DNA of 64,000 bases from Pelagerythrobacter marensis (lineage in GTDB: Bacteria > Pseudomonadota > Alphaproteobacteria > Sphingomonadales > Sphingomonadaceae), in the NCBI RefSeq assembly GCF_036700095.1, contig NZ_CP144918.1, positions 2,295,001-2,359,000 on the forward strand, in the 5' to 3' direction. Under the pieces are notes generated by a model. That model did no database searches and was not told the DNA's origin. It was given only the letters and a program-made list of their open reading frames with translations. A program made the translations under genes and the position numbers. Within the stretch, counting starts at the first letter, position 1; each line of letters begins with the position of its first letter. This document shows, in pieces, positions 53,554-58,014 of this stretch.

Positions 53554-54018
53554 ATGGCGAATCTGGACGAAATCGATCGGCGCCTGCTCGCCGAACTGCA
53601 GAACGAAGGGCGTGTCACGAATGTCGAGCTGGCGCATCGCGTCGGGCTGACCGCGCCGCCGTGCCTGCGCCGCGTGCGCTCGCTCGAAGAAGAAGGCGTA
53701 ATTCGCGGCTATCATGCGGAACTGGACGCATCGAAGCTGGGCTTCGCAATCACCGTGTTCGCAATGGTCAGCCTGAAGAGCCAGGCGGAAGATGCGCTGC
53801 GCGAATTCGAAGCGCATATGCAGGAACTGCCCGAGGTGCGCGAAGTGCATATGCTCAACGGCGAGATCGACTTCATCCTCAAGATCGTGAGCCGCGACCT
53901 CCAGAGCTTCCAGGAATTCCTGACCAGCAAGCTGACGCCCGCCCCCAACGTGGCCAGCGTGAAGACCAGCCTGACGATCCGGACCAGCAAGCACGAACCG
54001 GGCGTGCCGCTGGAGTGA
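53554..54018 (+). CDS. Lrp/AsnC-family transcriptional regulator
   Basis: This 154-residue regulator from ATG 53554 has the Lrp helix-turn-helix (LDEIDRRLLAELQNEGRVTNVELAHRVGLTAPPCLRRVRSLEEEGVI). An RAM/AsnC ligand-binding domain follows (VREVHMLNGEIDFILKIV). Members sense amino acids and control amino acid metabolism. It faces away from the histidine kinase gene. The 212-bp gap between them shows no obvious palindrome. Confidence 0.92.
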   Translation: MANLDEIDRRLLAELQNEGRVTNVELAHRVGLTAPPCLRRVRSLEEEGVIRGYHAELDASKLGFAITVFAMVSLKSQAEDALREFEAHMQELPEVREVHMLNGEIDFILKIVSRDLQSFQEFLTSKLTPAPNVASVKTSLTIRTSKHEPGVPLE

Positions 54019-54060: not shown

Positions 54061-54130
54061 CGGTCCTCCCCATTTTCACGCAGTGCAAATGGGGAGGTGG
54101 CAGCCGCGCCAGCGGCTGACGGAGGGGTTA
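54061..54130. repeat. Left terminal inverted repeat of DUF559 unit
   Basis: This segment of about 70 bp contains CCTCCCCATTTTC, CAAATGGGGAGGTGGC and GCTGACGGAGGGG. Its reverse complement matches 54486-54556 with scattered differences. Each copy can also fold on itself, because CCTCCCCAT pairs with ATGGGGAGG. Confidence 0.8.
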
Positions 54131-54484
54131 CTTGCTTTGGCAGTAACGAACGATCGAATCTGCAATTTCGTTCGCGTCGCGTAGAACCTCGCTCGCCGGA
54201 ATACGAATGACCTCAATATTCTGTGCGCGAAGCCATCGGTCTCGGGCGATATCCCGCTCAGGCCGATCGCCCATGTCGTGTGCCTGGCCGTCAATCTCGA
54301 TAGCGAGCTTCAGTGCCGCCACGTAAAAGTCCAGCACATACCGGCCGAGAGGGTGCTGCCGCCGAAATTTGATATCGCAAGCCTTCCGGCGTAGCTCCTG
54401 CCAGAGAAGCACTTCGGGCAAACTCATCTCTGCGCGCAACCGGCGCGCCCTGCCAATGTCCCGGATGCGCTTCGTGCGCGGCAC
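54128..54484 (-). CDS. DUF559 (Vsr-like endonuclease fold) protein
   Basis: This 118-residue protein has the DUF559 pattern: RARRLRAEMSLPEVLLWQELRR, FRRQHPLGRYVLDFYV, LAIEIDGQAHD, RDRWLRAQNIEVIRIP. The D-(x)n-ExD core (VLDFYVAALKLAIEIDG) marks a restriction-endonuclease-like fold related to Vsr and is intact. The gene fills almost all the DNA between two 70-bp inverted repeats, as if it were the cargo or enzyme of a very small mobile unit. DNA nicking or cleavage is predicted from the fold. Confidence 0.85.
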   Translation of the reverse strand: MPRTKRIRDIGRARRLRAEMSLPEVLLWQELRRKACDIKFRRQHPLGRYVLDFYVAALKLAIEIDGQAHDMGDRPERDIARDRWLRAQNIEVIRIPASEVLRDANEIADSIVRYCQSK

Positions 54485-54485
54485 T

Positions 54486-54556
54486 TTCCCCCTCCGTCAC
54501 CCGCCTGCGGCGGGCGCCACCTCCCCATTTGCGCCTGCGGCGAAAACGGGGAGGAA
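54486..54556. repeat. Right terminal inverted repeat of DUF559 unit
   Basis: This is the inverted counterpart of 54061-54130, containing CCCCTCCGTCACC, GCCACCTCCCCATTTG and GAAAACGGGGAGG. It ends 11 bp before the accC stop codon. Confidence 0.8.
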
Positions 54557-54566
54557 CCCGACCGGC

Positions 54567-55928
54567 TCACGCCTGGCTGTCGGTGCTGCGCTCCTTCAGC
54601 CATTCCTCCAGCCACTTGATCGAATAGTCGCCGTTCAGCACGTCGGGCTGCTTGATCAGTTCCTGGTGCAGCGGGATCGAGGTCTTTACGCCCTCGACCA
54701 CCATTTCCTCCAGCGCGCGGCGCAGGCGCATGATGCAGCGTTCGCGGTTGCGGCCGTAGACGATCAGCTTGGCGATCATCGAATCGTAATAGGGCGGGAT
54801 GCGATACCCGGCATATAGCCCGCTATCGACGCGCACATGCATGCCGCCGGCCGCGTGGTAATAGTTGACCGTGCCGGGGGAGGGGGCGAAAGTCCACGGA
54901 TCTTCCGCATTGAGGCGGCATTCGATCGCGTGCCCGGTAAACGTGATCTCGTCTTGGGTGCACGACAGATCTTTGCCGTCGGCGATGCGGATCTGCTCGC
55001 GCACAAGGTCGATCCCGGTGATCATCTCGGTCACCGGATGTTCGACCTGGAGGCGGGTGTTCATCTCGATGAAGTAGAATTCGCCGTCTTCCCACAGGAA
55101 CTCGATCGTGCCCGCGCCGCGATAACCCATGTCGGCCATCGCCTTCACGCAGACGCCGCCCATGCGGTCGCGCTCTTCGGGCGTGATGACCGGCGACGGC
55201 GCTTCTTCCAGCACTTTCTGGTGGCGGCGCTGGAGCGAACAGTCGCGCTCGCCCAGATGGATCGCGCCGCCGCGCCCGTCGCCGAACACCTGAAATTCGA
55301 TATGGCGCGGGTTGCCGAGATATTTCTCGATATAGACGGTGGCGTCGCCGAAGGCGGCCTTGGCCTCGCTGCCCGCCTGTTTCATCAGGGTTTCGAGCTG
55401 GTCGGGCCCTTCGCAGACTTTCATCCCGCGCCCGCCGCCGCCGCTCGCGGCCTTGATGATGACGGGATAGCCGATCTCGCCCGCGATCCGCCGCGCCTCG
55501 TCGTAATCCGATACGGCGCCTTCGCTGCCCGGCACCAGCGGCAGGCCCAGCGCGCCGGCGGTGCGCTTCGCCTCCACTTTGTCGCCCATCGTGCGGATAT
55601 GTTCGGGCTTGGGCCCGATCCACTTGATGTCGTGCGCCTCCACGATTTCGGCGAACTTGGCGTTTTCGGACAGAAAGCCGTAGCCGGGGTGGATCGCGTC
55701 GGCCTGGGCGATCTCCGCCGCCGAGATGATGTTGGCGACGTTGAGATAGCTTTCGTTCGCGGGCGGCGGGCCGATGCAGACCGCGTGATCGGCCAGCCGA
55801 ACGTGCATCGCGTCGGCATCGGCGGTCGAATGGACCGCGACCGTTTCGATCCCCATTTCGTGGGCCGCGCGGTGGATCCGCAATGCGATTTCGCCGCGGT
55901 TGGCGATAAGGATGCGTGAAATGCCCAC
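54567..55928 (-). CDS. accC: Acetyl-CoA carboxylase, biotin carboxylase subunit
   Basis: This 453-residue enzyme carboxylates biotin on AccB with ATP and bicarbonate, the first half-reaction of fatty-acid synthesis. It starts at GTG 55928 ([18 protein letters not shown]). It shows the ATP-grasp glycine loop [12 protein letters not shown], the catalytic Glu/Asn region [16 protein letters not shown] and the [13 protein letters not shown] end. Length fits the family (E. coli 449). It lies 8 bp after accB in the usual accBC operon. Confidence 0.95.
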
Positions 55929-56950: not shown

Positions 56951-57217
56951 TCAGTAGTGCCCCTTGCACTGAACGATTTCCAGCCTTTGATCGGGGTGTT
57001 TCCCGGCAATGCGATAGACGAGACGGTCCCTGTGGTTGACCCTGCGGGACCAGAGGCTGGCAAGCTCGCCTCGAAGCGGTTCGGGCTTGCCCGATCCTTT
57101 GAACGGATTCCTGCGGCTCTCTTCGATCAGGCCGTTCAGGCGCAGCAACATCTTCCGGTCGTTCTCGCACCAGTATCGATAGTCTTCCCATGCGTGGGAG
57201 GAGAAGACGATCTTCAC
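56951..57217 (-). CDS. yoeB: YoeB/Txe-family toxin
   Basis: This 88-residue RelE-fold mRNA interferase begins KIVFSSHAWEDYRYWCENDRKML, and the YoeB signature GKPEPLRGELASLWSRRVNHRDRLVYRI carries the catalytic Glu and Arg/His residues. KGHY is the classical C-terminal end with the active-site His and Tyr. It cleaves mRNA in the ribosomal A site. The start overlaps the antitoxin stop by 4 bp, the standard yefM-yoeB arrangement. Confidence 0.93.
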   Translation of the reverse strand: MKIVFSSHAWEDYRYWCENDRKMLLRLNGLIEESRRNPFKGSGKPEPLRGELASLWSRRVNHRDRLVYRIAGKHPDQRLEIVQCKGHY

Positions 57218-57468
57218 GGGCGGATCAATTCACGCTCGATGCCTTCGCCGCGGTCGAGTTCGGCGATGCTTTCGCGCAACCGCCCGGCGTTTTTCGGATT
57301 TGCCAGCAGGTGCTCGGTCTCGACGATCGAGTTCCATTCGGACAGGGAGACCATCACCACGGCCTCTCCGTTGCGGCGGGTGACGACCACTTCGGAACAG
57401 TGGTCCACCACCTTGTCCATCACGCTCTTCAGGTTCTTGCGCGCATCGCTGTAGGTTATCACATCCAC
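57214..57468 (-). CDS. yefM: YefM-family antitoxin
   Basis: This 84-residue Phd/YefM antitoxin starts at GTG 57468 behind GGAGA. The N-terminal DNA-binding part (VITYSDARKNLKSVMDKVVDHCSEVVVTRRNGEAVVMVSLSEWNSI) and acidic C-terminal toxin-binding tail (ESIAELDRGEGIERELI) are typical. It neutralises YoeB and represses the operon through the upstream palindrome at 57487-57514. Confidence 0.93.
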   Translation of the reverse strand: MDVITYSDARKNLKSVMDKVVDHCSEVVVTRRNGEAVVMVSLSEWNSIVETEHLLANPKNAGRLRESIAELDRGEGIERELIRP

Positions 57469-57486
57469 GACAGGTCTCCTTGCGGT

Positions 57487-57514
57487 GCATATGTACATGA
57501 AATTGTACATATGC
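57487..57514. promoter_or_regulatory. YefM-YoeB operator palindrome
   Basis: This is a perfect inverted repeat: arm GCATATGTACA, a 6-bp spacer, arm TGTACATATGC. Each arm contains the hexamer TGTACA known as the core of YefM-YoeB operator boxes. The site lies 18 bp upstream of the antitoxin GTG. Confidence 0.85.
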
Positions 57515-57527
57515 AATGGGAACGGGC

Positions 57528-57941
57528 TCAGGCGTCGATGCCCTTTGCCTTCCCCCACTGGCGTGCGGCGGTGTAGCCGAGATAGCCGGTGCCGAAGAGC
57601 ATGTAGAGTTCTTCGGGCAGGCCGCGCAGATAGGCGGTGATGCCGGCCCCGATGTTCTGTGCGGCGACCGGATCGAACGCCGACAGCACGCCCATCGGCA
57701 GGGCGAACAGCAGCAGGACGTACATGACGTAGAGAAAGCTCGGGCGCGCGCGGCTGGTCCAGGGATCGCGCGAACGGGCCTCCGCCACGATGGCCGAGAG
57801 GCGCGTCTCGATCCGTTTCAGTTCCTGCGTTCCCTCGAGTTCGAGCAGTTCGAGCTTGGCCCTGGCGCGGGCTTCCTTGTCCGGGATGACCTTGTCGATG
57901 ATCGCGGAAATCGGTCCGATGAGTGATTCGATGAGAGGCAT
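57528..57941 (-). CDS. 3TM-type (GTA-like) holin
   Basis: This 137-residue protein from ATG 57941 has an AAGGAG ribosome binding site. It starts with an amphipathic helix, then a charged coiled stretch (DKEARARAKLELLELEGTQELKR). Two or three hydrophobic segments follow (YVMYVLLLFALPMGVL and a late LYMLFGTGYLGYTAARQWGKAKG). This is the layout of the GTA_holin_3TM family found with gene transfer agents and prophages in alphaproteobacteria. No other phage genes surround it, so it may be an isolated GTA-linked or recruited gene. Confidence 0.8.
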   Translation of the reverse strand: MPLIESLIGPISAIIDKVIPDKEARARAKLELLELEGTQELKRIETRLSAIVAEARSRDPWTSRARPSFLYVMYVLLLFALPMGVLSAFDPVAAQNIGAGITAYLRGLPEELYMLFGTGYLGYTAARQWGKAKGIDA

Positions 57942-58014
57942 GGCGAACTCCTTGGTTGCGAGTCGCCAATTCATATAACCATAACGGTTAGTGTAGGAAA
58001 GTGTTTTTTGCCGG

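Follow-up and report, generated by a model that had tools for sequence, protein, structure and literature searches.

A DUF559 nuclease gene between facing two-hairpin repeats in Pelagerythrobacter marensis: probable gene-bearing member of a two-part, REPIN/RAYT-like mobile system

The window analysed here, a stretch of 64,000 nucleotides from Pelagerythrobacter marensis, carries at 54064..54555 a compact unit of 492 bp that consists of a left arm, a DUF559 (PF04480) gene and a right arm. Its neighbours are two convergent genes, one for an Lrp/AsnC-type regulator (lrp, + strand, ending at 54018) and one for biotin carboxylase (accC, − strand, ending at 54567), and the arms sit between the two. 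The left arm (54064..54127, + strand, 64 bp) and the right arm that faces it (54489..54555, − strand, 67 bp) are both of T type and, read inward, are identical at 56 of 64 aligned bases. Both follow the layout TCCTCCCC, hairpin 1, GGGGAGGTGGC, hairpin 2, GACGGAGGGG, with the purine-rich tail toward the gene. Folding places hairpin 1, the outer stem, at 54065..54097 (+) in the left arm and 54520..54554 (−) in the right one, and hairpin 2, the inner and hypervariable stem, at 54101..54118 (+) and 54498..54516 (−), respectively. The nuclease gene (54128..54484, − strand, 118 aa, GTG start) has a stop codon that abuts the left arm and a start codon 4 bp from the right arm, and no further gene lies inside the unit. 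A preliminary description of this DNA had seen a Vsr-like gene nearly filling the space between two imperfect inverted repeats with internal hairpins, the nuclease gene being the sole cargo, and all of this is borne out; its repeats are indeed paired, but they measure 64 and 67 bp rather than 70 bp.

When folded as single-stranded DNA, the left arm outdid 200 of 200 dinucleotide shuffles on either strand (z −6.1), and the two strands of the right arm gave z −3.9 (0/200 shuffles as good) and −3.3 (2/200 as good). The motif GGGGAGGKGG occurs three times in the 64-kb window, against 0.36 expected, twice in the arms of the unit and once inside accC. An Rfam search at the locus returned nothing relevant, its single lncRNA match being far under its gathering score, and PADLOC matched only a methyl-directed restriction model and DpdF, both weakly.

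The protein matches PF04480 over residues 12-115 with an E-value of 4.9e-27 and 94.4 bits (gathering cut-off 20.6), and a sequence profile links it to the EDxHD homing endonuclease family of I-Bth0305I (E 3e-4). Its predicted structure (pLDDT 86.3, pTM 0.79, with residues 68-73 below 50) would place it in the same fold as NGO0050 (3hrl, Z 13.9), the homing endonuclease I-Bth0305I (3r3p, Z 12.7, rmsd 2.5 over 94 residues; Foldseek E 6.7e-5) and Vsr (1cw0, Z 10.4). An alignment of 41 DUF559 sequences has sixteen invariant columns, including E24, D52, E63, D65, H69, D78 and R81; in the EDxHD residue comparison the solved chain differs at aligned positions. Kinship with known nucleases has been noted before: in an excerpt of a 2022 paper, a DUF559 gene from cyanobacteria is already assigned to the EDxHD homing family (PMC9403480), and, according to passages of another, the Caulobacter DUF559 protein VsrA is a Vsr-like nuclease that damages unmethylated DNA (PMC12907096). 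Judged from substitution rates, the gene is under strong purifying selection, with dN/dS over the domain of 0.03-0.19 in 11 computable pairs (one further pair was saturated) and of 0.11 between the window gene and its orthologue in G005, another genome of the genus.

The arms recur far beyond the locus, and their spacing falls into two classes. The pattern TCCTCCCCN{3,24}GGGGAGGKGG, which describes hairpin 1, was searched in seven genomes of the genus with the reversed pattern as control, and it was found 147 times, against a single match of the reversed pattern. Adjacent matches form 52 facing pairs, 44 of them with a gap below 2 kb. These comprise 34 pairs 57-99 bp apart (mode 77), none with a DUF559 gene, and ten pairs 409-457 bp apart, all ten of which enclose one; the window unit, with its hairpin-1 matches 416 bp apart, falls in the latter group. 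Facing pairs with gaps of 100-408 or 458-2000 bp are absent from the seven genomes. The arm pairs therefore come in two forms, one of about 0.5 kb with the gene and one of about 0.15 kb without it. The search pattern, being exact, picks up 10 of 33 DUF559 matches in the seven genomes; the remaining ones are mostly flanked by arms of other families. Among the short dimers, 32/34 combine a T-type arm (GGTGG) with a G-type arm (GGGGG), whereas the ten gene-bearing units are made up as TT (three), GG (four) or TG (three). One whole dimer (L144) folds as a clover-leaf at −60.1 kcal/mol (z −10.5).

DUF559 genes are the near-exclusive cargo of such arms also when loci are collected by the protein alone. 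With 320-bp domain flanks, 80 of 110 distinct DUF559 domains, from all fetched Pseudomonadota loci, have facing arms scoring at least 20; this set derives from 121 fetched loci, from which domains shorter than 75 aa, flanks shorter than 60 bp and repeats of the same protein were dropped. The controls were drawn from loci L074-L101 and L184-L236 with flanks of 250 bp, where DUF559 itself, scored with 320-bp flanks, reaches 20 in 52/77 loci. Only 1/342 other open reading frames does so, and that one is the broken DUF559 gene of L076, while 18 of 7338 control tiles reach this score. With 250-bp flanks for the nuclease as well, DUF559 reaches 20 in 54/82 loci (22/28 and 32/54 in the two sets that follow). 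In the 28 loci matched by the window protein, which come from named genomes and metagenome bins and overlap with the genus set because L074, L076 and L099 are also loci of G005 and G004, 24 DUF559 genes score above all control tiles from the same locus and 22 reach a score of 20; arms are absent from L091, L092 and L097, and L077 is outscored by two tiles, both part of a second DUF559 unit. That second gene, at 8740-9267 of L077, has yet another facing repeat (TTCTTCCCCCTTGATGGGGGAAGG). At the scale of the phylum, a DUF559 match was present in 37/120 Pseudomonadota genomes, and 32/54 strong loci score at least 20 and 22/54 below it, strong meaning matches with E ≤4e-20, with G000 (the window's own genome), the contig-end match G118:C16 and weaker matches left out. 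Nuclease genes of the HNH type, taken from 60 Pseudomonadota genomes (the best 30 places became loci, two of which were dropped for odd length), have facing arms in 0/28 loci with 250-bp and 500-bp flanks alike.

The 30/110 domains scoring below 20 include a divergent group without arms (L007, L051, L057 and L062), whose frames span about 177-231 aa and which is possibly a host-domesticated form. The preliminary description had counted DUF559 genes in relatives lacking these repeats against its own proposal, and the outcome is divided: many relatives without the exact repeat have another facing palindrome family, whereas the divergent group and others have none. DUF559 genes were also seen to recur at transhydrogenase genes across genera (L002 in G000, L138 in G002 and L152 on a Sphingomonas plasmid) and to adjoin acyl-CoA carboxylase genes (L134, L135 and L153).

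The repeat families share a common design, a pyrimidine/purine hairpin and, after it, a tail rich in purines; a second hairpin may or may not be present. Labels were given to 72 domains according to their arms: 36 belong to family A (CCTCCCC), 19 to B (CCCTCTCCC), 10 to C (CCCCTCCC), 4 to D (CCTTCTCCCC) and 3 to E (others). On a maximum-likelihood tree of these domains, which has few alignment columns and many open forks and from which 38/110 domains were left out (24 scoring below 17, the rest with arms of unclear label), the labels change nine times, against a mean of 32.2 in shuffled data, and 0/200 shuffles were as low. Taken by family, A requires two changes and B eight, and no clustering was seen for E. 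The nuclease clades thus track the repeat families, and genome G087 is informative in this respect, as it holds three A, two B and three C units, with A on one side of a starred branch of the tree and B and C on the other; the pairing is therefore not only a species effect.

Pairing is seen at a finer level too, though with exceptions. Loop classes (mid and long) were set by the length of the hairpin-1 match, and within family A the five long-loop units with 'TTTT' (those of the window, G005, G004, Alteriqipengyuania and the plasmid pTHN) require two changes. Genomes G005, with 31/31 long-loop arms, and G001, with 4/4 mid-loop arms, each have a DUF559 gene of the corresponding class, as does G003, where 5/7 arms are mid-loop. 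G004 has 20 mid-loop and 25 long-loop arm matches, and the latter persist even though its DUF559 gene between lrp and accC reads as broken (a 98-aa open frame in a 355-nt match). The misfit is G000, with 23 mid-loop arms without a mid-loop DUF559 gene and only three long-loop arms, though the unit of the window is long-loop. On the Novosphingobium conjugative plasmid pTHN, a long-loop unit (gap 415 bp) is accompanied, about 390 kb away, by a gene-less long-loop dimer with one G-type arm and one T-like, slightly degenerate arm.

The inner stem varies in sequence while its pairing is kept. Among 64 distinct inner cores of G-type arms from all fetched loci, 273/284 pairs from the second pair on are Watson-Crick, with all four pair types represented, and this covariation argues that the hairpin is kept and not its sequence. 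At the first pair, to which G.T is almost confined, this mismatch was found in 30 cores, A-T in 16, G-C in 15 and other combinations in three. Independent choice of purine and pyrimidine would give about 34 G.T and about four A.C pairs; G.T is therefore not in excess, and only the absence of A.C is suggestive of a wobble rule. More speculatively, DUF559 proteins may recognise their arms in part through a Vsr-like preference for G:T at the foot of the inner hairpin.

Orthologous sites point to past gain or loss of both units and dimers. Ten elements (seven dimers and three DUF559 units) were traced to 40 orthologous positions in the genus, with classes read by hand: 26 lack the element, five have one hairpin 1, three have a whole dimer, five have other DNA (0.4-1.0 kb, all at L135) and one could not be aligned. 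The DUF559 unit L135 of G000 splits acyl-CoA dehydrogenase and carboxyltransferase genes that abut in G004. Beside the transhydrogenase genes of G002, the unit L138 is missing in G003, whose left flank is 95% identical, and in G001, G004, G005 and G006; in G000 the same place is occupied by a DUF559 gene. A unit before a carboxylase gene in G004 is missing in G000 and G002, where the spacer is 55 bp; about 2 kb from it the situation is reversed, with a unit in both G000 and G002 and about 143 bp of other DNA in G004. Within a stretch of about 16-19 kb that is collinear in G004 and G000, one dimer is present in the former and missing in the latter. The junctions are not clean at L138 and L139, where some tens of flank bases differ too, and no target-site duplication was consistent over the ten sites, whose flanks are mostly 75-96% alike. 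At five dimer sites in sister species (L314, L315, L329, L331 and L332) one partly degenerate hairpin 1 is left, which would fit collapse of the dimer through a deletion between its outer stems. At one shared spot, the order of the dimer arms differs between two species, T-G against G-T (L132 at about 13010 and the reverse complement of L133 at about 10218), through either inversion or independent insertion.

The lrp-accC spacer itself, for which the preliminary description had proposed a comparison of empty sites, is too variable for a clean junction, and the clean empty sites come from the other units and dimers. The window unit is common to three species (that of the window, G005 and G004) and missing in G003, and is thus an old, inherited insertion. 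Among 30 such loci of the family, fetched out of 59 genomes searched, with lrp in 20/30, a DUF559 gene was found in the window's own spacer alone.

We consider it probable that the unit belongs, as the form that carries the gene, to a mobile system of two parts resembling REPIN/RAYT, in which a nuclease of homing-endonuclease type takes the place of the RAYT. A DUF559 nuclease of predicted Vsr fold is encoded between two facing two-hairpin arms, and the gene-less dimers of about 150 bp would be its dependent copies, as REPINs are of RAYT transposases. The nuclease would recognise its own type of arm when extruded as hairpins, either in single-stranded DNA at the replication fork or as a cruciform, and would nick or cut in the arm or close to it. 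Copies of the arm pair, some including the gene and some lacking it, would then be placed in short intergenic spacers by repair or template switching. We infer both the action of the nuclease on the arms, with mobilisation of arm pairs in trans, and the chemistry of copying. Against such a REPIN/RAYT-like system speak the lack of a consistent target duplication, the presence of some repeats without a cognate nuclease, the 30/110 domains without clear arms and the inherited insertion between lrp and accC; moreover, a nuclease by itself would need host repair for the insertion of DNA. Among the terms used in the preliminary description, 'REP-like' agrees with the DUF559 cargo of all ten unit-size pairs, the commonness of dimers and the variable presence between sister species, and 'homing-like' draws on the kinship of the protein, through the predicted fold that matches I-Bth0305I and Vsr. 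The term 'selfish' is uncertain, given a unit inherited in three species and a gene under strong purifying selection.

The main rival to this REPIN/RAYT-like reading casts the nuclease as a parasite of the repeats, a free-standing homing endonuclease that homes into the middle of dimers that are spread by other means. The DUF559 units do resemble dimers whose short spacer gave way to a gene, the predicted fold is one of homing endonucleases, and such nucleases can be encoded by optional free-standing genes with a conserved gene on either side, as stated in an excerpt of PMC6083498. Even so we regard it as unlikely, because tens of target arms per genome should yield several near-identical copies, whereas the DUF559 genes within a genome are mostly diverged, and because the dimers are nearly always T/G (32/34) whereas the units are TT, GG or TG (3, 4 and 3).

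The strong purifying selection and the inheritance at lrp-accC would suit a host or repeat-control factor, acting in mismatch or hairpin repair or in restriction and merely regulated by, or sheltered between, the repeats, and the activity described for Caulobacter VsrA in the available part of its report (PMC12907096) is in keeping with such a role. Yet patchy orthologous sites and clade-wise pairing with repeats are unexpected of a host repair gene, and the direct neighbours encode an Lrp/AsnC-type regulator and a biotin carboxylase, not a cytosine methyltransferase, so that this explanation appears quite improbable to us. That the arms are ordinary transcription terminators around an isolated small gene, or there by chance, is hardly credible: their position between the convergent lrp and accC would suit terminators, but the terminator scan found no terminator-like site at the arms (its one site lies inside the gene, with 0.6 expected), DUF559 genes fill 10/10 facing pairs with a gap of 409-457 bp, and the corresponding counts are 0/28 for HNH nucleases and 1/342 for other open reading frames. 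The size classes and the controls had already made this last explanation insufficient.

Several known systems share part of these features. As in REPIN/RAYT systems (TnpA-REP, REPtrons), a gene lies between facing palindromes, gene-less facing dimers are scattered over the genome, and the clade of the enzyme tracks the repeat family, as RAYT clades do. The differences are that a Vsr-fold nuclease (PF04480, by prediction) stands here in place of an HUH tyrosine transposase, and that the arms have two hairpins, begin with TCCTCCCC, end with GACGGAGGGG and lack the GTAG tag; RAYT genes are described as flanked by GTAG repeats in the part of PMC3733652 available. Facing repeats around a gene are known for RAYTs, and what differs here is the class of enzyme. 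With the Vsr-fold (EDxHD) homing endonucleases such as I-Bth0305I, the unit shares the predicted fold and the placement of an optional gene between conserved genes, but it encodes a 118-aa single domain without the long DNA-binding regions of the phage enzymes, as far as these are described in an excerpt of PMC3943268, and its gene is set in palindromic arms that are also found as gene-less copies. The very-short-patch repair endonuclease Vsr shares the predicted fold (1cw0, Z 10.4); the DUF559 gene, however, is directly flanked by lrp and accC and not by a methyltransferase gene, and its flanking repeats vary between species. MITEs are similar in being short gene-less derivatives with inverted ends, but no consistent target duplication was seen here and the gene-bearing unit has no DDE transposase. 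CGTC-tagged REPs are dimer-forming palindromes as well, commonest in alphaproteobacteria according to the portion of PMC3733652 at hand; the DUF559 arms differ from them in lacking a CGTC-tagged palindrome with a CCA-like tail, and in the genus the REPs of CGTC type pair with GIY-YIG genes. No paper joining DUF559 or GIY-YIG nucleases to REP-like repeats was among the matches listed in our literature search, which covered subscription journals and preprints thinly.

The GIY-YIG genes of the genus offer a parallel case, GIY-YIG and EDxHD both being families of homing endonucleases in the excerpt of PMC6083498. Of 23 such genes other than uvrC, 19 have facing repeats on their two sides, which by eye are mostly of the CGTC type (loci including L068-L071, L073 and L336-L359), against 0/7 for the UvrC genes of the same genus, told apart by frame length. 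One CGTC subtype gave 98 matches at no more than one mismatch and none with the reversed control, and its facing neighbours less than 3 kb apart are separated by either 9-50 bp (n=29) or 325-330 bp (n=4), with a GIY-YIG gene in 4/4 of the latter. At the scale of the phylum, where at most the best 30 places became loci and 1/29 was dropped for odd length, GIY-YIG genes are flanked less often, in 5/28 (250-bp flanks) to 6/28 loci (500-bp flanks). CGTC families 'apparently lack a dedicated transposase', in the words of a passage of PMC3733652. It is conceivable, at slightly less than an even chance in our judgement, that small homing-type nucleases, Vsr-fold DUF559 proteins and in parallel GIY-YIG proteins, each drive a separate family of facing hairpin dimers with no transposase involved, that such systems are widespread in Pseudomonadota, and that they explain the CGTC REPs and the CCTCCCC and CCCTCTCCC repeats. 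If so, several families would come under one testable rule, namely one nuclease clade per repeat family; and the REPIN/RAYT-like reading, if true, would give DUF559 proteins a role and describe a transposase-free mobile element of about 0.5 kb.

Elsewhere in the window, a YoeB-like toxin gene (56951-57217, − strand; PF06769, E 1.3e-31) lies behind a frame at 57214-57969 (− strand) with a Phd/YefM antitoxin domain at its end (PF02604, E 1.8e-22).
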